Shown: positions 22,207-38,955 of the stretch, in pieces
How positions within the stretch are numbered: the first letter of the stretch is position 1
Layout of the letters: every line of letters begins with the position of its first letter
Source of the DNA: Rhodopseudomonas sp. AAP120
GTDB lineage: Bacteria > Pseudomonadota > Alphaproteobacteria > Rhizobiales > Xanthobacteraceae
Assembly (NCBI RefSeq): GCF_001295845.1
Contig: NZ_LJIC01000002.1
Coordinates: 1-47,817, forward strand
DNA: 47,817 nt
Direction: 5' to 3'
Notes under the pieces: model-generated
Told to the model about the DNA's origin: nothing
The model's input: only the letters and a program-made list of their open reading frames with translations
Databases searched by the model: none
Position numbers and translations under genes: made by a program

Positions 22207-23124
22207 TCAGCGCCGGTATGGCTCGCCCAGCGTCGCCGGCGCCATCTGCCGGCCGACCAGACCGCCGACGGCGAGCAGCGCCAGCAGATAGGGCAGCATG
22301 ATCAGCAACGCATTCGGCACGTTGACGCCGAGCGCGGGGAGCTGGAATTGCAGCGCCGTCGCGGCGCCGAACAGCAGGCACGCCAGCGTGGTGCCGCCGA
22401 TCCGCCATTTGCCGAAGATCACCGAGGCGATCGCCAGATAGCCAGCGCCGCGGGTCATGCCCTCGGTGAAGGTGTGAATGTCGCCGATCGACAGGAAGGC
22501 GCCGGCCAGCGACGCCATGAAGCCGGCGAACACCACCACGCCGTAGCGCACCGCCGTCACCGACAGGCCGGATTTGTCGACCGCCTTCGGCTCAGCGCCG
22601 GCGGCGTGGATGGCGAGACCGAGCGACGTGTAGCGCAGCACCAATGCGGTGACGATGATGATGGCGATGCCGGCGTAGAGCAGCCAGACCTGCTCGAACA
22701 CCGCCGGGCCGATCATGGGAATATCGCCGAGCAGCGGCGGCTTGATCTTGGCGAGGCCAGGGATTTCGGCACGGGATCGCGCGCCAAAAATTTCGCGATA
22801 GGCCAGCGTGGTGGCGCCGAGCACCAGGATGTTGATGCCGATGCCGGAGACGATCTGGTTGGCGCGTAGCGTGTTGCTGAGAAAGGCTTGGAGCAGCGAC
22901 ACCGGCACCACCGAGATGATGCCGATCAACAGGCCGACCAGCGGATCGCCGGTCGCCCAGGCGCCGACCGCGGCGGCGAAGGCCGACATCAGCATCATGC
23001 CTTCGATGCTCATGTTGAGCACGCCAGCGCGCTCGCTGACCATCTCGCCGATGCCGGCCAGCAGCAGCGGCGTGGCGAGGCGGATCGACGAGCCGAGGAA
23101 GACGGCAAACAGCTCCCAGGTCAT
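22207..23124 (-). CDS. BMP-type ABC transporter permease 2
   Basis: A 305-residue membrane protein with about 8 hydrophobic segments, of the branched-chain-like permease family used by BMP/nucleoside importers (similar to YufQ and NupQ). The stretch ERAGVLNMSIEGMMLMSAF near the N terminus is the family signature, and GIGINILVLGATTLAYREIFG is conserved later. Its ATG overlaps the TGA of the previous gene by 4 bp (ATGA), so translation is coupled, and this decides the start at 23124 instead of 23136. It is the last gene of a four-gene importer operon (binding protein, ATPase, permease 1, permease 2). Confidence 0.92.
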   Translation of the reverse strand: MTWELFAVFLGSSIRLATPLLLAGIGEMVSERAGVLNMSIEGMMLMSAFAAAVGAWATGDPLVGLLIGIISVVPVSLLQAFLSNTLRANQIVSGIGINILVLGATTLAYREIFGARSRAEIPGLAKIKPPLLGDIPMIGPAVFEQVWLLYAGIAIIIVTALVLRYTSLGLAIHAAGAEPKAVDKSGLSVTAVRYGVVVFAGFMASLAGAFLSIGDIHTFTEGMTRGAGYLAIASVIFGKWRIGGTTLACLLFGAATALQFQLPALGVNVPNALLIMLPYLLALLAVGGLVGRQMAPATLGEPYRR

Positions 23125-24212
23125 TTGCGCTCCCACTTCTCGATGAACAGCGCCGCGCCGGCGAGCGTGATCACGATCAGGCCCTGGATCACCACCACCA
23201 GCGCGGTCGGTACCGCCGCGACCATCTCCATGTTGATGCCGCCCGAGCGCATAAAGCCGAACAGCAGCGAGGCGGCGATCACGCCCGGGATCGAGCCGCG
23301 CGACAGCAGGCCCGCGACCAGCCCGTCAAAGCCGTAGCCGGACGAGAAGCCGTCCTTCAGCGTGTGCTGCTCACCGAGCAGCATCAGCGCGCCGGCAAGG
23401 CCGCCCAGCGCACCGGCGCCGGCCAGCGCGAACACAACGGTCTTCGCATACGAGATCCCGGCACGATGCGCCGCGACCGGATTGAGCCCGACGGCGCGCA
23501 GCCGCACGCCGAAGATGGTCTTCGCTAGCAATACCCCGACCACCAGCGCGATCAGCAACGTCAGCGGCAGTCCGATATGCACCGGGAAGCCGTAATCGCC
23601 GGTGAGCAGCGGCAGCTGCGTCGAGTCCGGGATCTCCAGCGATTCCGGCAGTGTCGCCGAACTGGTCATCGGCTTGCGCAGCAGGGCCGGCGATTGCACG
23701 CACCAATACAGCAGCCAGACGCCGATGAACGACAGCAGCAGCGTCGAGATCACCTCGTTGGTGCCGGACTTCACCTTCAGCACCGCGGCGAGCGCGCCCC
23801 ACAGCGCACCGGCAATCACTGCGGCCAGCATCGGCAGCATGAAGGCGAGGCCGAGCGGCAGGTCGCTGACGTGGCCGTACAGCGCCACGGCGGTTGCGGC
23901 GATGCCGCCGACTGCGATCTGGCCTTCACCGCCGACATTGGTGAGGTTTGCGCGGTTGGCCAGCACGAAGCCGAAGCCGACCAGCGCGAACACGCAGGCG
24001 CGGTTGAGCGAGGCGGCGAGCGCATAGGGGGAGCCGATGGTGCCATCGACAAAAGCTTCGATCGCGTCGGGCACCGACACGCCAATCGCGGCGATCAACG
24101 CGAGACCGACCGCGGCGGCGAACGCCACGGCCGCGATCGGAACTAACAACGACGGTCGCAGCGTGAAACGCGGCGCGCGAGCGAGTGAGTTCTGCTGATC
24201 GAGCGTGGTCAT
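23121..24212 (-). CDS. BMP-type ABC transporter permease 1
   Basis: A 363-residue membrane protein with about 9-10 segments, partner of the downstream permease (YufP/NupP-like). Diagnostic stretches are FGFVLANRANLTNVGGEGQIAVGG, LKVKSGTNEVISTLLLSFIG and GLAGALMLLGEQHTLKDGFS. The ATG at 24212 overlaps the ATPase stop by ATGA, so the start is secure although the frame is open upstream. Both permeases form the membrane channel driven by the double-domain ATPase. The N-terminal 30 residues are cytosolic and carry no special motif. Confidence 0.92.
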   Translation of the reverse strand: MTTLDQQNSLARAPRFTLRPSLLVPIAAVAFAAAVGLALIAAIGVSVPDAIEAFVDGTIGSPYALAASLNRACVFALVGFGFVLANRANLTNVGGEGQIAVGGIAATAVALYGHVSDLPLGLAFMLPMLAAVIAGALWGALAAVLKVKSGTNEVISTLLLSFIGVWLLYWCVQSPALLRKPMTSSATLPESLEIPDSTQLPLLTGDYGFPVHIGLPLTLLIALVVGVLLAKTIFGVRLRAVGLNPVAAHRAGISYAKTVVFALAGAGALGGLAGALMLLGEQHTLKDGFSSGYGFDGLVAGLLSRGSIPGVIAASLLFGFMRSGGINMEMVAAVPTALVVVIQGLIVITLAGAALFIEKWERK

Positions 24213-25780
24213 TGTGCCTGCCCCGCCATCATGGCGCCGATCTCCGCCTTGCGGGCCGGATCGGCCGCGCATGTGCCCATGATCCGACCGCGATATAGCA
24301 CGACGATGCGGTCAGCGACGCTGAGCAGCTCGTCGAGTTCGGACGACACCAGCAGCACCGCGATGCCGCGGCCGCAGGCCTCGCGGATATGGCCGTACAC
24401 CGCCGCGACCGCGCCGACGTCGAGGCCGCGCGTCGGCTGCGACGCGACCAGGCACGACAGGTTCGGCAGCGTGATCTCGCGGGCCAGCACCGCCTTCTGC
24501 TGATTGCCGCCGGAGAGGCTCGAGAACGCCGCGCCCGGCCCGCGCGCGCGGACGTCGAAGCGCTGCATCAGCGTCGTCGCTTCGCGCTGCAAGGCGGTGC
24601 GGTTGAGGAAGCCGAAGCGGGTGAACTCATCGAGCCGGTTGAGATAGATGTTTTCGGCTAGGCTCATGCCGAGGACACAGCCGACGGCGTGGCGGTCTTC
24701 CGACACGATGCCGATTCCGGCCGCGGTGATCTCTTTCGGCGAACGGCCGGTGAGATCGGCCTCGCCCAAGTAATAGCGCCCGGAGGTCGGCGCCATCATG
24801 CCGGCCAGCACGGCGGCAAGTTCGCTCTGGCCGTTGCCTTCGACTCCGGCAACGCCGACGATCTCGCCGCGATCGACCGTCAGCGTGAAATTATCGAGCC
24901 GGGTGACGCCCTGGCGATCCTTCACCGTCAGCCCGTCGATCTGCAGCGCCTCGATCTTGCTACGCGGCGGCTGATAACCGACATGCGCGACCTTGCCGAG
25001 CCCGAGTGTCGAGGCCGCCGCGCCGTCGAGCTCGGCGACGTCGCCATGGATCATCGCCCGCACCAGCCCGTCGATATCGCGCGCCGGCGCATCCGAGGTC
25101 GCAACGGTGCGGCCGCCGCGCAGCACGGTGACACGATCGGCGACTTCCTTGATCTCGGCGAGCTTGTGGGTGACCAGCACCACGGCACGGCCGCTCGCCG
25201 CGACGCGGCGGCAGACCTGCAGCAGCGCCGCGATCTCATCCGGCAGCAGCACGGCGGTCGGCTCGTCCAGCACGAACAGCTGCGGATCGCGGATCAGGCA
25301 CTTGACGATCTCGACCCGCTGCCGCTCGCCGACGGAGAGGTCGTCGATCTTGGCATTCGGATCGAGCGGCAGGCCGTACTCATCCGCCAGCTTGGCGAGC
25401 TGCCGCGCGCAGTCCTTGCGATTGAGCACGCCGCGGCCGCGGCCGAGCAGCACGTTGTCGACGACACTCATGTCGCCGACCAGGCTGAAATGCTGGTGAA
25501 CCATGGCGATGCCCTGCGTCAGCGCATCGGCCGGCCCGGACGGCTGATAGGCGGCGCCGCGATAGGTCATCGCGCCGCCGTCCGGCCGGTGCACGCCGAA
25601 CATCACGTTGCACAGCGTCGACTTCCCGGCGCCGTTCTCGCCCAGGATGCAATGCACCTCGCCCGGTCGCAGGTCGAGCGAGACCTCCGACAATGCGGTG
25701 AAGCTGCCGAACCGCTTGGTCACCTGAGACAGGCTGAGCAGCGGCGTAGAGGCTTCGACGGCGGGCGAGGTGCTGATCAT
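24209..25780 (-). CDS. BMP-type ABC transporter, double ATP-binding protein
   Basis: A 523-residue protein with two fused ABC domains, as in RbsA/YufO. Domain 1 (about residues 15-245) has Walker A GENGAGKST, signature LSVGERQRVEI and Walker B FVLDEPTAVL. Domain 2 (about 265-510) has the degenerate P-loop usual for this family (GVAGVEGNGQSEL), signature LSGGNQQKAVLAREI and the motif SQPTRGLDVGAV. Domain 2 is thus hydrolysis-impaired by family rule, not by a local mutation. It powers the two permeases. The gene follows the binding-protein gene after only 2 bp and overlaps the next gene. Confidence 0.93.
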   Translation of the reverse strand: MISTSPAVEASTPLLSLSQVTKRFGSFTALSEVSLDLRPGEVHCILGENGAGKSTLCNVMFGVHRPDGGAMTYRGAAYQPSGPADALTQGIAMVHQHFSLVGDMSVVDNVLLGRGRGVLNRKDCARQLAKLADEYGLPLDPNAKIDDLSVGERQRVEIVKCLIRDPQLFVLDEPTAVLLPDEIAALLQVCRRVAASGRAVVLVTHKLAEIKEVADRVTVLRGGRTVATSDAPARDIDGLVRAMIHGDVAELDGAAASTLGLGKVAHVGYQPPRSKIEALQIDGLTVKDRQGVTRLDNFTLTVDRGEIVGVAGVEGNGQSELAAVLAGMMAPTSGRYYLGEADLTGRSPKEITAAGIGIVSEDRHAVGCVLGMSLAENIYLNRLDEFTRFGFLNRTALQREATTLMQRFDVRARGPGAAFSSLSGGNQQKAVLAREITLPNLSCLVASQPTRGLDVGAVAAVYGHIREACGRGIAVLLVSSELDELLSVADRIVVLYRGRIMGTCAADPARKAEIGAMMAGQAQ

Positions 25781-25782
25781 GG

Positions 25783-26751
25783 CTAGCCCTTCAGCACCTT
25801 GATCTTGCCGGCGAGCAGATCCTTCATGATGGCGTCGAGCTTGGCCTTCTGCTCCGGCGTCGCGCCGCAGATCACCATGTTGGAGGCTTCCGGCCCCATC
25901 TTCAGGCCGAACTCCTTGTAGCCCGGCGCCCAGCTCCCCTTCACGGCTTCGTCGATCGCGTATTGCACCTGATAGCCGGTGCCGGTGATCGAATAGGCGA
26001 CGTACAACGGATCGGTGCCGCAGCGATCGGTGTAGCTGCCGATGATGTGGGTGCCCTTCTCCTTCGCCGCCTGCTCCATGCCGCGCAGGCCGAGATTGAG
26101 GATGTGGTAGTGAATGTCGGCGCCCTGCGCGATCGCCGCCAGCGTCGCTTCCTTGGCTTTCGCCACGTCGTCGAAATCGCCGGTGTAGTTCTCGGTGTAT
26201 TTGATGTTGGGATTGATCGACTTGGCACCGTTGCCGAATTCCTTGCCGGCATTGACGATCGACGGGATCTCGAGGCCGCCCACATAGCTGATCGCGCCAT
26301 TCTTCGACAGCATTGCCGCCGCCGCGCCGGCCACATAGGCGATCTCGGCCTGCTTGACGTCGTAGCCGGCGACATTCGGCGCGCTCTCGCCGTCATTGCC
26401 GCCGACGATCGAGAAGTGAACTTTCGGGAAGCGCTTGGCGATCTTGTACACCGACGCCTGGGTCTGGCCGCCGACGCCGATCACCAGCGTGTTCTTGCTG
26501 GCCAGGTTGGTCAGCGCCTGATCCATATCGGCGTAGTTGATGTTCTCGATCATCTGCACCTTGATCTTGTCGCCGTACTTCTTCTCGGCGGCCATCAGGC
26601 CGTCGTACGACGACTCCATCCAGCCCTTGTCGGACTTCGACCCCGGAATCAGGATGCCGACCTTGAGCGGCTCGGCCTGCGCCAACGTGGCGGACAATGT
26701 CAGCGCGCCGGTGAGCAGCGCGGCTTTCAGAACGGAACGGCGTGACCTCAT
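25783..26751 (-). CDS. BMP-family ABC transporter substrate-binding protein
   Basis: A 322-residue periplasmic BMP (PnrA-like) binding protein. A signal peptide spans residues 1-26 (MRSRRSVLKAALLTGALTLSATLAQA). Family elements are VGILIPGSKSDKGWMESSYDGL, LASKNTLVIGVGGQTQASV, and KRFPKVHFSIVGG. BMP proteins usually bind purine nucleosides or related heterocycles. The ATG at 26751 was chosen because it starts the signal peptide and has AGAGGGG upstream. The operon is divergent from an amidase-TetR pair, which suggests a nitrogen-containing substrate such as a purine breakdown product; this is inference. Confidence 0.92.
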   Translation of the reverse strand: MRSRRSVLKAALLTGALTLSATLAQAEPLKVGILIPGSKSDKGWMESSYDGLMAAEKKYGDKIKVQMIENINYADMDQALTNLASKNTLVIGVGGQTQASVYKIAKRFPKVHFSIVGGNDGESAPNVAGYDVKQAEIAYVAGAAAAMLSKNGAISYVGGLEIPSIVNAGKEFGNGAKSINPNIKYTENYTGDFDDVAKAKEATLAAIAQGADIHYHILNLGLRGMEQAAKEKGTHIIGSYTDRCGTDPLYVAYSITGTGYQVQYAIDEAVKGSWAPGYKEFGLKMGPEASNMVICGATPEQKAKLDAIMKDLLAGKIKVLKG

Positions 26752-26828
26752 GAGACCCCTCTTTGGAAGCTGAATTGGTTGTGCGCCTCCCTGCAGCAAG
26801 CGGTATGCCAACACATCACCGCACTGAT

Positions 26829-26868
26829 TTTGTTTGGGAATTTCATAGACGCGGCCGCCCCAAACAAA
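26829..26868. promoter_or_regulatory. Perfect 10-bp inverted repeat between BMP importer and amidase operons
   Basis: Arms TTTGTTTGGG (26829-26838) and CCCAAACAAA (26859-26868) are perfectly complementary, with a 20-bp spacer. They lie in the 320-bp divergent region, about 78-117 bp upstream of the binding-protein start. The arm spacing (30 bp centre to centre, three helical turns) fits two half-sites on one DNA face. The TetR protein encoded at 28289 is a natural candidate regulator. The rest of the gap shows no other clear signal. Confidence 0.65.
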
Positions 26869-27071
26869 CAAATGCTTACTTTTTAAGCCGCTAGTTGCGT
26901 GTCATGTCGAATCCGCAAGCAGGCGGTCGGCTCACTTCGGCGACCAGCATTGAATCTCCTCACAAATCGCCGCTGGCAGCGAACTTGCAATCAACCTGAT
27001 CGGCACAGTTTGTAGTCGAGCCTTGTCAGCACCGCGCTTCGCAAGATGATGCGCGCAACGGAGAAACCACC

Positions 27072-28292
27072 ATGATGACCAGCGACGGCACCGATCCCCG
27101 CGTGACGCACGCGCACGATGTCGGCGCATTCGTTCCCGGCCCGCGGTTGCAGGTCGCCGCGACCTCGCCTGGTCCGCTCGACGGACTGAGCTTTGCGGTC
27201 AAGGATCTGATCGACGTTGCCGGCACCATCACCGGCGGCGGCAATCCGGACTGGCTGCGCACCCATGGCCCGGCGACGCGCTCCGCCCCCGTGGTCGAGC
27301 GCCTGCTCGCGGCCGGCGCCAGCATCCATGGCAAGACCATCACCGACGAACTCGCCTTCAGCCTCGAAGGCGTCAACGAACATTACGGCACGCCGCTCAA
27401 TCCGGCCTGCCCGGATCGGATCCCCGGCGGCTCATCCTCCGGGTCCGCCTCGGCGGTTGCCGCCGGACTGGTCGATTTCGCGCTCGGCACAGACACCGGC
27501 GGTTCGGTGCGGGTGCCGGCGAGCTTTTGCGGCATTTACGGCATGCGTCCCACTCACGACGCGTTGCCGCTCGACGGCGTGTTGCCGTTCGCGCCGAGCT
27601 ACGACACCGTCGGCTGGTTCGCGCGGGACGTGGACACGCTGGCGCGCGTCGGCGACGTGCTGCTGCCGAAAGCATCTCCTGCGCCGATCGAGAAGCTGAT
27701 CGTCGTCAGCGACGCCTTCGCGATCGCCGACGAGCCGGTCGCGGCCGCGCTGCGCGCGGTTTGTCAGGCGCTCGGCGCCACGGAGGAAATCACCGTCTTT
27801 GGCGGTGCCGATGCGGACTGGTTCGAGGCCTATCGCATCCTGCAAGGCACGGAGAACTGGCGCGAGCTCGGACCATGGATCAGCGCCACCAAGCCGCGTT
27901 TCGGCGAAGCGATCGCGCCGCGCTTTGCCGGCACGGAAGATATCACTGCGGAAGATGTCGAGCGCTGGCAGCCGGTGCGCGACGCCATCAGAGCCAAGCT
28001 CCGCGCGCAGCTCGGCGGCGGCGTTGCCTGGCTGATTCCCACCGCGCCCTGCATCGCGCTGCGCAAGGATGCGCCCGGCGCCGGCGAGCAGATCGGCCCG
28101 TTCTACGGACGCGCGCTGACGCTGACGTCGATCGCCGGCCATGCCGGGCTGCCGCAGATCAATCTGCCCGCAGCGACCGTCGACGGTTGTCCTGCCGGCC
28201 TCTCGATCGTCGCCGGCGCAAGCCAGGATCGCGCTTTGTTGGATGCGACGCGCGGCCTTGCTGCACGTCTGGCAGACCGGACGGCGGCATGA
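27072..28292 (+). CDS. Amidase (amidase-signature family)
   Basis: A 406-residue cytosolic amidase with the Ser-Ser-Lys triad: Lys44 in FAVKDLIDVAG, the Gly/Ser-rich loop PGGSSSGSASAV at about 118-129 (cis-Ser), and the nucleophile Ser145 in DTGGSVRVPA. The length is shorter than the usual 450-500, close to the AMI1/hydantoin-side amidase group. It hydrolyses a carboxamide to acid and ammonia. The TetR gene begins within its stop codon (ATGA), so they are co-translated, and the divergent BMP importer is a likely partner in substrate uptake. The two initial ATG codons at 27072 and 27075 are both possible starts. Confidence 0.88.
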   Translation: MMTSDGTDPRVTHAHDVGAFVPGPRLQVAATSPGPLDGLSFAVKDLIDVAGTITGGGNPDWLRTHGPATRSAPVVERLLAAGASIHGKTITDELAFSLEGVNEHYGTPLNPACPDRIPGGSSSGSASAVAAGLVDFALGTDTGGSVRVPASFCGIYGMRPTHDALPLDGVLPFAPSYDTVGWFARDVDTLARVGDVLLPKASPAPIEKLIVVSDAFAIADEPVAAALRAVCQALGATEEITVFGGADADWFEAYRILQGTENWRELGPWISATKPRFGEAIAPRFAGTEDITAEDVERWQPVRDAIRAKLRAQLGGGVAWLIPTAPCIALRKDAPGAGEQIGPFYGRALTLTSIAGHAGLPQINLPAATVDGCPAGLSIVAGASQDRALLDATRGLAARLADRTAA

Positions 28293-30927: not shown

Positions 30928-32253
30928 ATGAGCGGCGACGATTTGCCTGCAGCGACCATCCGTCCGGTGTCCAGACGCAAACTACTCAAGATCACTGCAG
31001 GCTCTGCAGCGGCCGCCGTTGCAGGCTTCGCGGCACCCAGCGTGATCGCCGCCGGCAAGGACAAAATCCTGATCGGCGTCCCGTCTTCGCTGTCCACGCC
31101 TTACGGCGTCGCCGACGACACCGATCATCTCAACGGCACAAAGCTCGCCGTGGAGGAGATCAATGCGGCCGGCGGTGTGCTCGGGCGCGAGATCGAGCTG
31201 TTCGTACCGGACGTCGATAAGCTCAATCCGGAAAGCTGCCGGCAGGCGATCGCCGCCTGCATCGACAAGAAGGTGCTGGCGATTTCCAACGCCTTCCTGT
31301 TCGCACCGATCCCCGCGATGGACGAATCCGCCAAGTACAAATGCCCGTATCTGCAGGGCAACACGCAGCGCACCGCGACGCTGGCCTACAAGGCGGACCC
31401 GAAGAAATACAGCCATGTGCTGCAGACCGATCCGTCGGAAGTCAACTACGGCTGGACCTATCCGCTGTGGCTCACCAAGATGGAAGAGACCGGCGTCTGG
31501 AAGCCTAAGAACCGCAAGATCCACATCGTCGCCGAGCAGGTCGGCTACTGCCAGACCATCCTCAAGGCGGCCAAGGAAGCGATCCCGAAATACAAGTTCG
31601 AACTCGCCGCCGTCACCGACATCCAGTATCCGGTCAACGACTGGAGCCCGGTGATCCAGAAACTCAAGGAAGTCGACGCCGGCGCGATCATGATCGACCA
31701 TTGGGTCGCCGCCGAATACGCCGCGTTCTGCAAGCAGTTCTCCGCCGACCCCGTGCCGGGATCGCTGGTCTATCTGCAATACGGCCCGTCGCAGCCGGAA
31801 TTCCTCGAACTCGGCGGCAATGCCACCGAAGGCTTCTGCTGGAGCACCGTGCTCGGCGTCTACGGCGACAAGACCGGCCAGGACTTCCGCGCCAAGTATC
31901 TCAAGAAATATCCGAAGTATGCCGGCAACATGGGCCTCGTCTACACCGGCAACGGCTACGACATCGTGCAGTACCTGAAGCGTTCGTGGGAGGCGACCAA
32001 GAAGCCGGAAGACTTCGAGGCGAACTGCACGTGGATCCGCGAGAATCCCTATCGCGGCGTCTGCGGCATGATGAACATGAACAACGAGTATCAGGAGGGG
32101 CTGCACTATCCCGACAACGGCTTCGGCAACCAGGCCGCCGAGCTCGAGAAGGGCATGAGTCAGCTGTTCGTGCAGGTGCAGGACGGCTCCCACAAGATCG
32201 TCTGGCCCAACGAGATCGCCGAGTCGAAGTTGAAGCCGGCTCCGTGGTGGTGA
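30928..32253 (+). CDS. ABC transporter substrate-binding protein, branched-chain/amide type
   Basis: A 441-residue periplasmic binding protein (peripla_BP_6 fold). A twin-arginine signal is at residues 15-42 (SRRKLLKITAG and AAVAGFAAPSVIAA), so it is exported folded, unusual but known for this family. The mature N terminus IGVPSSLSTPYGVADDTDHLNGTKLAVEEINAAGG matches Liv/urea/short-chain amide binding proteins. The ATG follows GAGGGGTAAG. It starts the operon that ends with the DMFase-type hydrolase, so it most likely binds the amide substrate. The C terminus, ESKLKPAPWW, is family-typical. Confidence 0.92.
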   Translation: MSGDDLPAATIRPVSRRKLLKITAGSAAAAVAGFAAPSVIAAGKDKILIGVPSSLSTPYGVADDTDHLNGTKLAVEEINAAGGVLGREIELFVPDVDKLNPESCRQAIAACIDKKVLAISNAFLFAPIPAMDESAKYKCPYLQGNTQRTATLAYKADPKKYSHVLQTDPSEVNYGWTYPLWLTKMEETGVWKPKNRKIHIVAEQVGYCQTILKAAKEAIPKYKFELAAVTDIQYPVNDWSPVIQKLKEVDAGAIMIDHWVAAEYAAFCKQFSADPVPGSLVYLQYGPSQPEFLELGGNATEGFCWSTVLGVYGDKTGQDFRAKYLKKYPKYAGNMGLVYTGNGYDIVQYLKRSWEATKKPEDFEANCTWIRENPYRGVCGMMNMNNEYQEGLHYPDNGFGNQAAELEKGMSQLFVQVQDGSHKIVWPNEIAESKLKPAPWW

Positions 32254-32272: not shown

Positions 32273-32992
<720 letters not shown>

Positions 32993-32994
32993 GC

Positions 32995-33705
32995 ATGACC
33001 GAAGTGCTGAAGATCGAGGGATTGTCGGCCGGCTACGGCCCGCTCCGGGTGATCCACGATCTCGATCTGGTGATCCAGCCGGGCGAACGGATCGGCATCG
33101 TCGGCCTCAACGGCCATGGCAAGACCACGCTGTTCTACGCCATCGCCGGTCTCACCGGCTGGCAGCGCGGCTCCATCCTGCTCAACGGGCGACAGATCGG
33201 CCGCACCCGCAGCCAGGGCGCCGGGCGTTACACCCACCAGATCGTGCGTCAGGGGCTGGCAATCATGCCGCAGGGCGACGAGATTTTTCAGGGACTGACG
33301 GTGGAGGAACATCTCGACTCCGGAGCGTTCACGCCCGAAGCGTGGCGCACCCGCAAGGAGCGCAAGGAGCGCGTGCTCGACATCTTCGAGCCGCTGCGCA
33401 AGCTGATGAAGACGCCGGTCGGCCGTCTGTCGGGTGGCGAGCGCCGCATGGTGTCGATCGGGCGCGGATTGATGACTGACGCCAAGTTGTATCTCGCCGA
33501 CGAGCCCTCGCTCGGCCTCGCACCGAAGATCGGCATCGCGGTGATGAACGCGCTGCTGGCGATCGACCTGAAGGACTCGGCGATGTTCATCGCCGAGCAG
33601 AACGTTGCGCTGCTCGAAGGAAAGGTCGACCGCATCATCGGCATGCACGCCGGCAAGCTGAAGGGCGAGGCCTCCTCGTCGTTCCGCCTCGGCGGCGGTC
33701 ACTGA
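32995..33705 (+). CDS. LivF-like ABC ATPase
   Basis: A 236-residue ABC ATPase. Walker A is GLNGHGKTT, the Q-loop region has MPQGDEIFQGLTVEEHL, the signature is intact (RLSGGERRMVSIGRGLM) and Walker B is LYLADEPSLGLAP. The ATG at 32995 (MTEVLKIEGLSAGYG) is preferred over TTG at 32989; it lies 2 bp after the previous stop. The middle contains an Arg/Lys-rich helix (EAWRTRKERKERVLDIFEPL) longer than in E. coli LivF. With the LivG-like ATPase it forms the motor of the amide importer. Confidence 0.93.
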   Translation: MTEVLKIEGLSAGYGPLRVIHDLDLVIQPGERIGIVGLNGHGKTTLFYAIAGLTGWQRGSILLNGRQIGRTRSQGAGRYTHQIVRQGLAIMPQGDEIFQGLTVEEHLDSGAFTPEAWRTRKERKERVLDIFEPLRKLMKTPVGRLSGGERRMVSIGRGLMTDAKLYLADEPSLGLAPKIGIAVMNALLAIDLKDSAMFIAEQNVALLEGKVDRIIGMHAGKLKGEASSSFRLGGGH

Positions 33706-33713
33706 GCGCGCCG

Positions 33714-34595
33714 ATGGATATCGCCTTCGTCCTCATCAACGCGATCACCGTGGCGGCGATCTACGGCCTGATCGCGATCGCGGTGTCGATCACCTGGTCG
33801 AGTCTCGGGCTGGTCAATCTCGCCTACGGCTTCATCTTCTCGTTCGCCGGCTACGCCGCCTGGCTGATGGCGACGCAAGTCTCCAAGGACCCGTTCCTGG
33901 TCGCCGGCACCGGCATCGCGGCCGGCGCACTCGGCGGCATCATCGTCTGTCTCCTGGTGTTTATCCCGCTGCACGACAAGCCGGCCTTCACGTCGCGCGG
34001 CATGATCGCCACGCTGGCGATCAGCCTGATCGGCAGCCAGCTGTTCCTGATGCTGTTCGGCCCGACGTCGAAGTCGCTGCCCGATCTGTTCGGCCGCTGG
34101 CGCACCAAGATCTTCGACGTCACGCTGACCGCCGACAAGATCGGCATCGTGGCCTGCTCGGTCGCGATGCTGATCCTTGTCGTGGCGTGGATGAAGTCGA
34201 GCCGGCGCGGGCTGGAAATCCGCGCCATGATGATGAACCCGCACGCCGCTGCGATCGTCGGCATCGGCGTCCGCCGCACCGGCTTCTACGTCATGGGCCT
34301 GACCGGCGCGATGGCCGGCCTCGCCTCGGTGCTGCTGTCGCAGACCTATTACATCGCGCCGTTCTCCGGCCTGACGCCGCTGATCAAGGGCGTCTCGATC
34401 GCGCTGTGCGGCGGCCTCGGCTCGGTGCAGGGCGCCGTGATCGCCGCCATCCTGCTCGGTCTGGTCGAAGCGCTCACCAACAAGTTCCTCGGCGGCCAAT
34501 ATGTGCTGATGACGCAGTTCCTGGTGATCATCGCCATCCTGATCGTGCGGCCGCGCGGCATCTCCGGCATCGTCGACAAGGCGCGCGAGCAATAG
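33714..34595 (+). CDS. LivH-like ABC permease
   Basis: A 293-residue integral membrane protein with about 8 segments (VLINAITVAAIYGLIAIAVSI starts the first). The family loop that contacts the ATPase is present near SRRGLEIRAMMMNPHAAAIVGI, and GLTPLIKGVSIALCGGLGSVQGAV is the conserved C-terminal part. It heterodimerises with the LivM-like permease encoded directly downstream (1 bp gap). It is of normal length for the family and has no added domain. Confidence 0.93.
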   Translation: MDIAFVLINAITVAAIYGLIAIAVSITWSSLGLVNLAYGFIFSFAGYAAWLMATQVSKDPFLVAGTGIAAGALGGIIVCLLVFIPLHDKPAFTSRGMIATLAISLIGSQLFLMLFGPTSKSLPDLFGRWRTKIFDVTLTADKIGIVACSVAMLILVVAWMKSSRRGLEIRAMMMNPHAAAIVGIGVRRTGFYVMGLTGAMAGLASVLLSQTYYIAPFSGLTPLIKGVSIALCGGLGSVQGAVIAAILLGLVEALTNKFLGGQYVLMTQFLVIIAILIVRPRGISGIVDKAREQ

Positions 34596-34596
34596 A

Positions 34597-36261
34597 ATGA
34601 CAGATCAACCGCGCATCACGCCCCCGCCACCAACCTGGAAAAATCCGCTGGCCGCCTGGGGCACCGCCACCGGCAATTCCGAAGCGGCGACCGTTGCGGT
34701 GCCGGATCCGCGCGAGATCTGGCGCAAATCCACCGCCTACAAGGTCAAGACCTATCCGGTCGGCCGGCTCAAATACTTCATCGTCTGGCGCGCGCACGGC
34801 GCGAAGCTGTGGGAGCGGCTGCGCTGGTGGCCGACCCGGCGCAACCTGCTGGCGGTCAAGGGCCTGTACAACCGCAAGACCGCGATCGCCGAAAAGCGCA
34901 TCCTCGACCGTCGACCGATCTATTGGGCGCTGGCGCTGATCGGCCTGCTGATCGCCCCGCTGCTGTTTCCGCAGGCGCAGACCAACGCGCTGCTCACCGC
35001 CGGCGCAACCTTCGGCATCTTCGCGGCAATCAACGTGTGCTGGACCCTGATCATCGGCACCGCGTCGATCTTCTCGCTCGCCACCTATGCGGTGGTCGGC
35101 ACCGCGGCCTTCGTCACCTCGCTGCTGTCGATCCACTACGGCGTGCCATGGTACGCGATGCCGCCGATCGGCGCCGGCATCGGTCTGGTGTTCGGCCTGC
35201 TGATCGCGCTGCCGGCGCTGCGGCTCGACGGCTTCTACTACGCACTGCTGACGCTGGGTCTGAACGAGCTGTTCCGGGTGTTCTTCACCACCTCCAAACA
35301 GTTCGGTGCGTCCTCCGGTGGCCTGTACGGCGCCGACTCGTTCATCAGCCAGGCGTGGCCGCCGATGACGCAGTCGATGGTCGCGTATTATTCGTCGTTC
35401 CTGCTGCTGGTGCTGGCGCTATTCGTGTTCCGCTTCATCAATGGCAAGCGGCTCGGCCGCGTCCTGCGGATGGCGCCGGAAAAACACGAGGCGTTCGCGG
35501 CCGCCGCCGGCGTCGACTACAAGCGCGCCCGCATCACCATCTTCCTGCTGACCTCCGCGGCGCTCGGCTTCATCGGCGGGTTCTACGCCGCGCAGTATCG
35601 CGGCGTCGCCTATTCGATCTTCGATTTCCAGACGGTGCTGCTCGGCCTCGCCATGATCACCATCGGCGGCATCGGGCGGGCCGAAGGCGCCGTGCTCGGC
35701 ACCCTGGCGGTGATCTTCCTGCGCGACGTGCTGCTCGAATGGGGGCCGTGGCGCTATCTGATCATCGGGACGTTGATGCTGGGCGCCGTGCTGTTTCTCA
35801 ACAACGGCTATTTCGGAATCCGCAAGCAGTTCACCGCCTGGCGCGCGAAGAAGCGCGGCGAATGGCGCTCCACTCGCACCGAGAAAGGCGGCGAGGCGCT
35901 GCCCGAGGAAGCCACCGAGATCGACGACAAGGACGCGCTGTATTTCCGCCGCTACGACAAGATGCAGCGCGACTACCTCAAAGGTTTGATCTCGCCCGAG
36001 ATCATCGAGGAGCATCGCCGCCAGCCGCTGGGCCAGCATTCCGAGGCCCTGGAACGCGTGCTGCTGTATTTCCGCCGCGCCAAGATGGACGACAAATACG
36101 CGCTGCACGCCGCGTCGCCGCACGGCCCCTACAAGATCATCGCCTTCTCGGGCGTGCGCGGCGTCTCGCCGCGGCTGGTGGACGATCGCGAATACGGCAC
36201 GCTGGACGAGGGCTATCACGCCGTCTTCATGCGGCGCGTCCACGACCTGATGGAAAGCTGA
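34597..36261 (+). CDS. LivM-like ABC permease fused to a DMFase small-subunit-like domain
   Basis: A 554-residue protein; normal LivM is about 300-420. Residues 1-107 are a soluble, basic N-terminal extension (PTRRNLLAVKGLYNRKTAIA lies near its end). Residues about 108-410 hold some 8 membrane segments with the LivM marks LPALRLDGFYYALLTLGLNE and GGIGRAEGAVLGTLAVIFLR. A charged linker (RAKKRGEWRSTRTEKGGEA) leads to a domain at 446-554 (FRRYDKMQRDYLKG, EEHRRQPLGQHSEALERVLL, DDREYGTLDEGYHAVFMRRV). That domain aligns over its whole length with the 119-residue protein encoded next, about one third identical by eye, and should face the cytosol. It thus joins an importer permease to a subunit-like module of the hydrolase. 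Confidence 0.9.
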   Translation: MTDQPRITPPPPTWKNPLAAWGTATGNSEAATVAVPDPREIWRKSTAYKVKTYPVGRLKYFIVWRAHGAKLWERLRWWPTRRNLLAVKGLYNRKTAIAEKRILDRRPIYWALALIGLLIAPLLFPQAQTNALLTAGATFGIFAAINVCWTLIIGTASIFSLATYAVVGTAAFVTSLLSIHYGVPWYAMPPIGAGIGLVFGLLIALPALRLDGFYYALLTLGLNELFRVFFTTSKQFGASSGGLYGADSFISQAWPPMTQSMVAYYSSFLLLVLALFVFRFINGKRLGRVLRMAPEKHEAFAAAAGVDYKRARITIFLLTSAALGFIGGFYAAQYRGVAYSIFDFQTVLLGLAMITIGGIGRAEGAVLGTLAVIFLRDVLLEWGPWRYLIIGTLMLGAVLFLNNGYFGIRKQFTAWRAKKRGEWRSTRTEKGGEALPEEATEIDDKDALYFRRYDKMQRDYLKGLISPEIIEEHRRQPLGQHSEALERVLLYFRRAKMDDKYALHAASPHGPYKIIAFSGVRGVSPRLVDDREYGTLDEGYHAVFMRRVHDLMES

Positions 36262-36271
36262 GGGCGGGCCG

Positions 36272-36631
36272 ATGGCGGAGCCCCCAACCATCGACGTGCC
36301 GGATCAGGACGACCACGTCCGCGATCTGTTCGACCGGATGACCCGGGCCTATCTGCGGTCGGTGCTGAGCGACGAACTGATCGCCGAGCACGCGCGCGGC
36401 GATCACGGCCATGTCAGCGAGCCCCTGGCGCGGCTGCTCGCCTGGTGCCATCGCCGGCCGCGGCAGCAGCAATATGCCGTCAAGGCCGAAGCCGACGGCA
36501 GCTTCCGGCTGATCCGCTTCGCCGGGCGCGGACAGAAGCCCGTTTACGTCGGCGACGAGCGCTTCGTCACCTTGCAGGCGGCGCGGCACGGCGCGTTCCT
36601 TCGCCACGTTCAGGACCTCACAGAGAAGTAG
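36272..36631 (+). CDS. Putative DMFase small subunit
   Basis: A 119-residue cytosolic protein. Its pattern is DRMTRAYLRSVLSDELIAEH, SEPLARLLAWCHRR, YAVKAEADGSFRLIRFAG and DERFVTLQAARHGAFLRHVQ. It is homologous to the C-terminal domain of the preceding permease. It lies 2 bp before the large-subunit gene. N,N-dimethylformamidase (DmfA1-DmfA2) has a small subunit of about 130 residues encoded immediately before the large one, so size and position make this the small subunit; sequence recognition is by context and general resemblance, not a residue-level proof. It would support the large subunit's assembly. The internal duplication with the permease is the chief oddity. Confidence 0.7.
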   Translation: MAEPPTIDVPDQDDHVRDLFDRMTRAYLRSVLSDELIAEHARGDHGHVSEPLARLLAWCHRRPRQQQYAVKAEADGSFRLIRFAGRGQKPVYVGDERFVTLQAARHGAFLRHVQDLTEK

Positions 36632-36633
36632 AG

Positions 36634-38955
36634 ATGGCTCAGCAGAAGATCTTCGGATACGCCGACCGCCTTTCTGTCCGCCCCGGCGAAAACATCACCT
36701 TCCATGTCAATTGCGACGGCGCCAGCGAAGCGGACGCCAGGCTGGTTCGGCTGATCCACGGCGACAGCAGCCCCGCCGGCCCCGGGCATGTCGAGGTCGA
36801 GGTCGACAGCGCGGTCAACGGCAGCTGGGCGGTGAAGAAGCAGTTCACCCAGCTCGGCAGCTATCTCGAGGTCGAAGACCCCTCGCGCAAACTGGACGTA
36901 TCCGGCAGCCTCACGCTGATGGCGTTCGTGTGGCCGACGCTGCCGCACAAGGGCAACCGCCAGACCATTCTCGGCCGCTGGGACACGCTGCGCAACGCCG
37001 GCTACGCGCTCGGTATCAACCCCGCAGGACATCTGGAGTTCTGGGTCGGCAACGGCACCGAGGTCGACTACGTCACCGCCGAGCTGCCGCTCGTCGCCAA
37101 GGTCTGGTACTTCGTCGCGGTGTCGTATGATCGCGCCAGCGGCCGCGCAGAGATCTATCAGGAGGGCGTGCTCAACCGCTACAATTCGCTGATCAGCAAG
37201 GTGGTGCCGCACGACTATGCCAGCCACGTCGCCCAGCACTTCCGCTTCGCGCCGGACAACCGGCCCGACGTGCCGTTCCTGATCGCCGGGGCACGCGACG
37301 AACACAAACTGCGCGGCCCGTTCGTCAGCGACCTATATGCGGGCAAGATCGACCGTCCGGCGATCTGCGGCCGCGCGCTGACCCGCGCCGAACTCGATCA
37401 TTGCCGCAAGGGCGGCCTGCCGCCGGAAGCCGACATCCTGGCCTATTGGGACACGTCGAAAGGCTACACCGCGCACGGCATCGGCCACGACGTCATCGAC
37501 ATCGGTCCGCACAAGCTCGACGCCAAAGGCTTCAACCACCCGGTACGCGGCATGACCGGCTGGAACTGGACCGGCAAGGACGACTGCTTCCGGCTCGATC
37601 CGTCGCAATATGGCGGCATCGAATTCCATCCCGACGCCGTCACCGATTGCCGCTGGGAGCCGACCAAGACCTTCACGGTTCCGGCCGATCTGAAGAGCGG
37701 CATCTATGCGATGCGGCTGCGGATCGGGCCCGGCACCGGCATCGCCGAAGAGTACATCGTGTTCGTGGTGCGGCCAGCGAAGCCGAACGGGAAGCTGTGT
37801 TTCCTGGTGCCGACCGCGAGCTATCTGGCGTACGGCAACGAGTCGCTCTCCTTCGACGCCCACATCATCCAGCCGATGACCGGCCAGCCGCCGGTCGTCA
37901 CCGATCTCGACGTCGAAACCTACGAGCATCGCGAATACGGCCTGTCGACCTACGATCACTACGAGGACGACGCCGGCGTCTGCTTCTCGTCCTACCTGCG
38001 GCCGATCGTCAACATGCGGCCGAAATATCGCATGTCGAGCATGAACATCACCTGGCAGTTCCCGGCCGATCTGTCGATCGTCGCCTGGATCGACCACATG
38101 GGCTACGATTGCGACTTCATCACCGACGAGGACCTCGACCGCGAAGGCGTCGAGTTGCTGAAGCCGTATCTATGCGTGATGAGCGGCACCCATCCGGAAT
38201 ACGTCTCGGAGAAGATGCTCGATGCGCAGGAGGATTACGTCGCCGGTGGCGGCCGGCTGATCTATATGGGCGGCAACGGCTATTACTGGGTGGTGGGATT
38301 CGACCCGGAAGTGCCGGCCTGCATGGAGGTGCGCAAGCTCGATAGCGGCATGCGCGCCTGGGCCGCCAAGCCCGGCGAGCACTATTTGCAGACCACCGGG
38401 GAGAAGAGCGGGCTGTGGCGCAATCGCGGCCGCGCGCCGCAGAAGCTGACCGGCGTCGGCTTCATCGCCGAAGGCTTCGAAACCGCCGCGCCGTATCGCA
38501 AGATGCCCGACGCCTGGCACCGCACGGTGTCGTGGATCACCGAAGGGGTCGAAGGCGAGATCATCGGCGATTGCGGCCTCGCCTATGGGGCCGCCGCCGG
38601 TGTCGAACTCGACCGCTACGACCTGTCGCTCGGCACGCCGCCGCACACCAAGATCATCGCCTCGTCGGGCGGGCATTCCGACAACTACGTGCTGGTGACG
38701 GAGGAACTGCTTTACGCCTATGCGGGCCTCACCGGCTCTCTGGATTATCGCATCCGCGGCGACATCACCTACTTCACCGCGCCGAACGACGGCGCGGTGT
38801 TTTCGACCGGCTCGATCGGCTACGGCCAGGCATTGCCGGCCAACGGCTTCGACAACTCCGCATCACGCGTCCTCGCCAATGTGGTGGACGCCTTCCTGAA
38901 GCCGGGCCGCCTGCCCGGTAGCCACTGGACCGTCGAGGAGAAGCAGTGGCGCTAA
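36634..38955 (+). CDS. N,N-dimethylformamidase-type large subunit
   Basis: A 773-residue protein of the DMFase large (beta) subunit family, whose known member hydrolyses dimethylformamide to dimethylamine and formate. Residues about 75-215 are a LamG/ConA-like jelly roll (TILGRWDTLRNAGYALGIN; VWYFVAVSYDRASGRAEIYQ). Residues about 380-720 are the catalytic part, with a glutamine-amidotransferase-like core (EDYVAGGGRLIYMGGNGYYW). The characterised enzyme holds one iron with two Tyr and one Glu, close to a His; matching candidates here are Y400 (SYLAYGN), Y440 (LSTYDHY), H520 and E522 (SGTHPEY). There is no signal peptide, so it is cytosolic. It ends the seven-gene operon, after the importer that would supply its substrate. 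The real substrate may be another N-substituted amide. Confidence 0.88.
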   Translation: MAQQKIFGYADRLSVRPGENITFHVNCDGASEADARLVRLIHGDSSPAGPGHVEVEVDSAVNGSWAVKKQFTQLGSYLEVEDPSRKLDVSGSLTLMAFVWPTLPHKGNRQTILGRWDTLRNAGYALGINPAGHLEFWVGNGTEVDYVTAELPLVAKVWYFVAVSYDRASGRAEIYQEGVLNRYNSLISKVVPHDYASHVAQHFRFAPDNRPDVPFLIAGARDEHKLRGPFVSDLYAGKIDRPAICGRALTRAELDHCRKGGLPPEADILAYWDTSKGYTAHGIGHDVIDIGPHKLDAKGFNHPVRGMTGWNWTGKDDCFRLDPSQYGGIEFHPDAVTDCRWEPTKTFTVPADLKSGIYAMRLRIGPGTGIAEEYIVFVVRPAKPNGKLCFLVPTASYLAYGNESLSFDAHIIQPMTGQPPVVTDLDVETYEHREYGLSTYDHYEDDAGVCFSSYLRPIVNMRPKYRMSSMNITWQFPADLSIVAWIDHMGYDCDFITDEDLDREGVELLKPYLCVMSGTHPEYVSEKMLDAQEDYVAGGGRLIYMGGNGYYWVVGFDPEVPACMEVRKLDSGMRAWAAKPGEHYLQTTGEKSGLWRNRGRAPQKLTGVGFIAEGFETAAPYRKMPDAWHRTVSWITEGVEGEIIGDCGLAYGAAAGVELDRYDLSLGTPPHTKIIASSGGHSDNYVLVTEELLYAYAGLTGSLDYRIRGDITYFTAPNDGAVFSTGSIGYGQALPANGFDNSASRVLANVVDAFLKPGRLPGSHWTVEEKQWR

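Follow-up and report, generated by a model that had tools for sequence, protein, structure and literature searches.

The operon described here raises the question of what an enzyme subunit would be doing at the end of a membrane permease. It lies on the forward strand of the window, meaning the whole stretch of 47,817 nucleotides of Rhodopseudomonas sp. AAP120 that was analysed (contig NZ_LJIC01000002.1). As read from its sequence, the window carries the genes of a LivFGHM/Urt-type ABC importer, and a dimethylformamidase (DMFase) small-subunit domain forms the end of the LivM-like subunit. The genes are those of a periplasmic substrate-binding protein of the transporter (30928-32253; weak NCBIfam matches to LivJ and UrtA types, best PDB match 3h5l), a LivG/UrtD-like ATPase (32273-32992), a LivF/UrtE-like ATPase (32989-33705), a LivH/UrtB-like permease (33714-34595), the fused LivM-type permease of 554 residues (34597-36261), a free small (alpha) subunit of 119 residues (36272-36631) and a DMFase-type large (beta) subunit of 773 residues (36634-38955), all on the forward strand. 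The free small gene stands directly before the large-subunit gene, and the fused copy one gene earlier.

Subunit set, gene order (binding protein, two ATPases, LivH, LivM) and permease family were those of LivFGHM/UrtABCDE-type importers. FmdDEF-type ABC importers have the same set and order, and we know of no enzyme subunit on LivM or UrtC. The fused permease consisted of an N-terminal stretch, a LivM-type core (residues 138-397; Pfam BPD_transp_2, above cut-off) and the small-subunit domain (residues 438-554; 35908-36258). It differed from LivM and UrtC proper in not reaching their curated equivalog cut-offs (69.6 of 366 bits and 48.8 of 296.2 bits, respectively), and is therefore called LivM-type. 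A second ABC importer, with a Bmp-type binding protein, an ATPase and two permeases, was present at 22207-28292 of the window, beside an amidase gene (27072-28292).

The preliminary description had taken the permease tail and the protein that follows it for relatives of about one-third identity, with the same order of sequence blocks and a single gap. Both open reading frames were found in place and were mutual homologues, with 41 of 113 positions identical (36%; BLASTP E 1e-20) and, relative to 5000 shuffles, z-scores of about 26 for global and 28 for local alignment. The block order held; the single gap did not, as the alignment had two one-residue gaps. The tail alone matched the DMFase small subunit in the PDB (6lvb_B; E 5.5e-10), the free copy alone matched it more weakly (E 4.7e-6), and a profile built from the fused and free kinds matched it at E 1.7e-19, so that sensitive profile comparison recovered the relation between the tail and DmfA1. 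With the whole permease as query, residues 433-551 aligned to positions 6-127 of the 132 in the chain, and the permease thus contains an almost complete subunit. No Pfam or NCBIfam family matched the tail or the free copy at E 1 or better.

When the permease was modelled with AlphaFold (27 sequences, mean pLDDT 74, pTM 0.57), the model had an ordered tail at about residues 445-553, with long first and last helices, after a poorly ordered linker (425-443). Foldseek ranked 6lvb_B first for this model (TM 0.82 over the target, E 6.4e-5), followed by two further DMFase small-subunit chains and then by BtuC-type permeases. The last membrane helix of the permease is followed by a Lys/Arg-rich stretch and no signal peptide is evident in the large subunit, from which both the tail and the large subunit should be cytosolic. 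Homology and fold agreed in this respect with the earlier proposal of a small-subunit-like module on the predicted cytosolic end of the permease, beside a DMFase-type large subunit.

The LivM::small-subunit fusion is widespread and old. Searching genomes for it yielded 52 fused and 68 free distinct small domains over all loci (identical domains collapsed; that of L154 is identical to that of L135 and was counted once), and the window's fusion is thus no one-off. A large-subunit gene followed 51 of the 52 fused domains, the contig ending in the remaining case (L027), and lay within 500 bases after 65 of the 68 free ones. That the tail is a general LivM extension, occurring in operons without a DMFase-like gene, was rejected, with no case among the 52 distinct fusions. 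A permease scan of one genome per species found 26 loci. In two of them (L031 and L032) the contig ends before the tail; the other 24 all have the fusion, although the contig of L027 stops within the tail.

In the genome samples, none of which was exhaustive, matches were obtained in 28 of 385 genomes of the class sample (E 1e-3; with fusions, in the loci retrieved, in no genome but the window's and G001), in 7 of 398 genomes of the phylum sample (E 1e-5; fused in three), in 17 of 397 genomes of the order sample (E 1e-20; fused in 15), in 5 of 350 genomes of the class of G724 (E 1e-20; the fusion in G724 and free small subunits in the remaining four) and in 8 of 389 genomes of the order of G387 (E 1e-30; fused locus in 8 of 8, three of these genomes being already in the set). 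Four free small subunits (L139-L142) each had a large gene after them. Large stop-to-stop frames at L034, L046 and L055 were rejected as further fusions, because the sequence upstream had no hydrophobic segments, and are free small subunits. One locus in a record titled Oceanobacillus (Bacillota; L012) grouped with proteobacterial loci, and its contig was probably misassigned.

The fused permeases were annotated only as branched-chain amino acid permease. Neither a printed description of the fusion nor a paper combining dimethylformamidase with an ABC transporter was found in the literature searched, outside which most subscription papers lay; within that literature, the earlier view that the fusion was undescribed held. 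A free small subunit beside a large subunit in the archaeon Halalkalicoccus (L125, 7779-8321) was annotated 'inner-membrane translocator', a label that presumably stems from the fusion and serves as a warning for annotation.

The large subunit of the window scored 584 bits as a DMFase large subunit vs 386 bits as the related acylase, and kept the Fe ligands Y400, Y440 and E522 and the catalytic H520. Residues Y399, Y440, H519, E521 and N547 of the Paracoccus enzyme were each kept in 33 or 34 of 34 aligned large subunits. Unlike the Paracoccus enzyme, which has Phe at pocket position F693, the window's large subunit has Tyr there, as did 29 of 30 fusion-operon large subunits, with His in the other one (1 of 30) and Phe in 4 others aligned. 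With F693 replaced in fusion operons, the substrate may differ, and DMF itself is not assured. By analogy with the enzyme family, the hydrolase substrate would be some amide; its assignment to DMF or to another amide is speculative. In operons with two tandem large subunits (L137, 3800-8902; L127, 8428-13168), one of the two had lost catalytic residues: in the first of L137, Y399 is replaced by F and H519 by R, and in the second of L127, E521 is replaced by A. Such pairs are perhaps a docking half plus a catalytic half.

According to the DMFase report (PMC7686228), the large subunit is inactive by itself, the N-terminal helix of the small subunit is wedged between two large subunits, and the active-site cavity runs between small and large subunit. 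On balance, we think that the tail is probably a working small subunit that ties the downstream hydrolase to the importer, with a second, untethered alpha needed. The tail would bind and activate the large subunit encoded downstream and would place part of the enzyme on the importer's cytosolic face, where the imported amide would be hydrolysed upon arrival. As the enzyme is alpha2beta2 and there is one LivM per importer, a second, untethered alpha would be needed to complete it. In the window this alpha would be supplied by the free gene at 36272, and in operons without a free gene probably by an internal start within the permease gene. From the sequences we infer the binding, the tethering and location, and the combination of one tethered with one free alpha; channelling of the amide from pore to enzyme is speculative.

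One argument for a working tail comes from the copy numbers of the small domain. Among the 52 fused loci, 19 had a free small gene between the permease and the large gene, as in the window (class A), 32 had no free small gene there (class B), and one cannot be called. One small domain, which was the fused one, and one large subunit were found in each of G663 and G724 (100% complete, 0% contamination). The fused domain was also the sole small domain in G001 (98% complete), whose one large subunit runs off the end of its contig. L028 and L030 come from genomes, with no completeness figures given, that likewise had one small domain, fused, and one large subunit. The large-subunit gene after 51 of 52 fused domains, the two complete genomes with a single, fused small domain and a large subunit inactive alone together make the tail most likely a working subunit. 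Elsewhere among the class B genomes searched, each extra small domain was near its own large-subunit match, except for an orphan in G886.

Other arrangements were also seen. The order was permease::alpha, beta, free alpha, beta in L137, and LivM::alpha, beta1, free alpha, beta2 in G965, where by its place the tail stands in for the alpha of beta1; on an Aminobacter plasmid the fusion was followed by two large genes. The window's genome had a further class B locus on C23, and on C90 a third set with a free small subunit, in which the LivM-type protein had 368 residues and no tail.

Regulatory domains on the cytosolic side of ABC importers are known to switch transport off, and the cytosolic end of a permease is a usual site for them. 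The tail is at that end, and an unlikely alternative is that it lies outside the working enzyme and senses it, the large subunit or the product binding the tail and shutting transport off; the tail would bind the large subunit either way. If the tail were only a sensor, the enzyme would lack its partner, unless an internal start supplied alpha, and such a sensor has to contend with genomes in which the tail is the sole small subunit found and with a published large subunit that is inactive alone (PMC7686228).

Some large subunits had no adjoining small gene. That of G400:C32 is well within the DMFase type, scoring 738 bits against the large-subunit profile (1430 for the window's), and has no small gene within 2.5 kb. 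No small domain was found near G395:C4, of the large-subunit family (489 bits), near G886:C1:740278 (27 bits to the large-subunit profile), or near the weaker Pfam matches G386:C7:384604, G393:C37, G920:C95 and G977:C18. These cases mean that relatives may work without alpha, or that their alpha is elsewhere or was missed by the profile. At L156 (2571-4907), in a genome that has a fusion operon as well, no small gene lay in the 2.5 kb before a good large subunit of the DMFase type. Conversely placed were the orphan small subunits of L121, L122 and L123 (about 1498-1863), which had no large subunit within 1.5 kb, were identical to each other at 95-100 of 105 residues, and are possibly regulatory; that of L122 had a response regulator and a binding-protein gene as neighbours.

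Further genes accompanied some of the fused loci. A 383-residue ORF between fused permease and large subunit in G724 (L132, 8912-10063; L092, 1890-3041) looks like an outer-membrane porin, as judged by eye. Divergently upstream in L010 (1315-4812), and similarly in L014 and L021, were genes for a PAS hybrid kinase, a LuxR-type response regulator and a protein of binding-protein fold that had no evident signal peptide. The binding-protein fold of L010 matched the orphan structure 3h5l at E 2.6e-105, and is possibly an amide sensor. In the window, the LuxR-type response regulator, hybrid kinase and signal-peptide-less binding protein that neighbour these relatives were not found.

A candidate internal start was located at the junction between permease and tail. 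The linker KGGE was followed by a start codon in all of the first 24 class B loci scored (21 ATG, 1 GTG, 2 TTG), a frequent junction sequence being AAA GGA GGC GAG ATG. None of the 19 class A loci had ATG at this place (L011 has GTG, L007 and L119 have TTG). The window reads GAG AAA GGC GGC GAG GCG CTG on the forward strand (35881-35901), and has no start codon and no strong Shine-Dalgarno sequence (-7.1 kcal/mol) there. The mean Shine-Dalgarno energy was -10.6 in class B vs -8.5 for synonymous versions (p < 0.05 in 8 of 24; -10 or lower in 19 of 24), and -7.2 in class A, again vs -8.5 (p < 0.05 in 0 of 19).

Nine further class B rows were scored after the start-site idea had formed, and in eight of them the domain sequence was new. 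A start codon was present in 8 of these 8 (5 ATG, 3 GTG) and a strong Shine-Dalgarno sequence in 5 of 8, the three without it being on Agrobacterium and Rhizobium plasmids; the synonymous comparison gave p < 0.05 in 2 of 9 rows. Over all of class B, the junction start codon was present in 32 of 32 and was preceded by a strong Shine-Dalgarno sequence in 24 of 32, and by a weak one (-7.0 to -7.7) in the other 8 (L109, L110, L132, L133, L137, L143-L145). L137, the only class B locus with a free small gene further downstream, has kept the ATG, with a weak Shine-Dalgarno sequence (-7.0). The junction Met had the strongest Shine-Dalgarno sequence among in-frame ATGs in all 15 class B permeases tested, and a stronger one than the assumed own start of the gene in 14 of them.

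Codon usage in the linker differed between the classes (L145 and L119 left out; L154, a near copy of L135, included). The first linker Gly was GGA in 20 of 32 class B rows and in 0 of 18 class A rows, and the class B share was the highest among 28 invariant Gly columns (mean 0.10). The linker Lys was AAA in 27 of 32 class B rows (mean 0.28 over 7 columns) and in 2 of 18 class A rows. On the LivM tree, class A forms a single clade and an independent-pairs test had one pair, so that the contrast between classes amounts to about one evolutionary event and makes a sign test impossible. The codon constraint over several old class B branches is better evidence for a start than the class contrast. 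In class B, one gene may make both the fused and the free small subunit.

The preliminary description had called the tail a copy of the small subunit, whereas the direction appears to be the reverse. In a small-domain tree (60 rows, 117 columns; long branches, few columns), the free operon copies nested inside the fused domains. In AU tests on groups picked after the tree was seen, the fused domains as one clade were rejected (p 5e-5), whereas the free operon copies as one clade (p 0.283) and the fused domains plus free operon copies as one clade (p 0.109) were allowed. Joining the free operon copies with other free subunits was disfavoured (p 0.039; free copy of L137, and L122, excluded), and so was, under the same post hoc choice of groups, a classical DmfA1 type for the free operon copy. 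Between the window and its nearest relative, identity was 96% for the tail and 81% for the free copy. Tail identity to relatives was 58-96%; in 22 of 26 rows the tail was at least as well conserved as the LivM core. From the nesting of the free copies in the fused ones and their faster evolution, the permease tail seems to have been duplicated to give the free protein.

The strength of the junction Met over other in-frame ATGs and over the assumed own start would also fit a fused gene that is chiefly a means of making the free small subunit, with the tail as a passive passenger; all working enzyme would then draw its alpha from internal initiation in class B or from the separate gene in class A. 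This is unlikely, and somewhat less likely than a sensing tail. Class A keeps its tail despite having a free gene, and the free copy was less conserved than the tail in all 14 rows with both. Chance similarity, a frameshift or an assembly artefact can be dismissed, in view of the E-values of the tail and free-copy matches and of the recurrence of the fusion in 52 distinct sequences, which come from isolates, plasmids and metagenome genomes.

For a tail that works as a small subunit, a more detailed history can be proposed tentatively, and we lean slightly against it as a whole. Tethered and free alpha would ancestrally come from one gene with an internal start; the window's clade would have duplicated the gene and lost the start, and docking would be asymmetric, with one alpha2beta2 hydrolase per importer and the amide caught at the pore exit.

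Among known systems, the SulP-carbonic anhydrase fusion of transporter and enzyme couples uptake to conversion. A whole enzyme domain is fused in that case, whereas the window's permease carries a non-catalytic but required subunit. DmfA1/DmfA2 of Paracoccus (PDB 6lvb; PMC7686228) resemble the window's proteins in subunit sequence and fold, small-then-large order, catalytic His and Fe ligands; DmfA1 stands free, and the pAMI2 stretch examined had no ABC transporter genes, whereas in the window an alpha lies within the permease. On the same plasmid, a predicted beta-lactamase gene (L126, 6096-6359) lay wholly within an IS3-type transposase gene and is probably a false call. Cas11b is a small subunit made by internal in-frame translation inside cas8b (PMC11899642). 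The fused permease gene resembles the Cas11 case in having a small subunit within a larger gene, where an internal start would also yield the small subunit on its own; the proteins are unrelated, the larger partner here is a membrane permease, and its internal start is only predicted.

If the tail is a working small subunit, the fused gene would be a further, non-CRISPR example in which one gene may encode a small subunit in two forms, one a domain and the other a separate protein, and a fold whose discoverers called its origin unknown would have a new role. Transport-coupled hydrolysis would become directly testable. The operon would then represent an ABC importer that is physically part of the enzyme consuming its own cargo, in a widespread and overlooked proteobacterial family.
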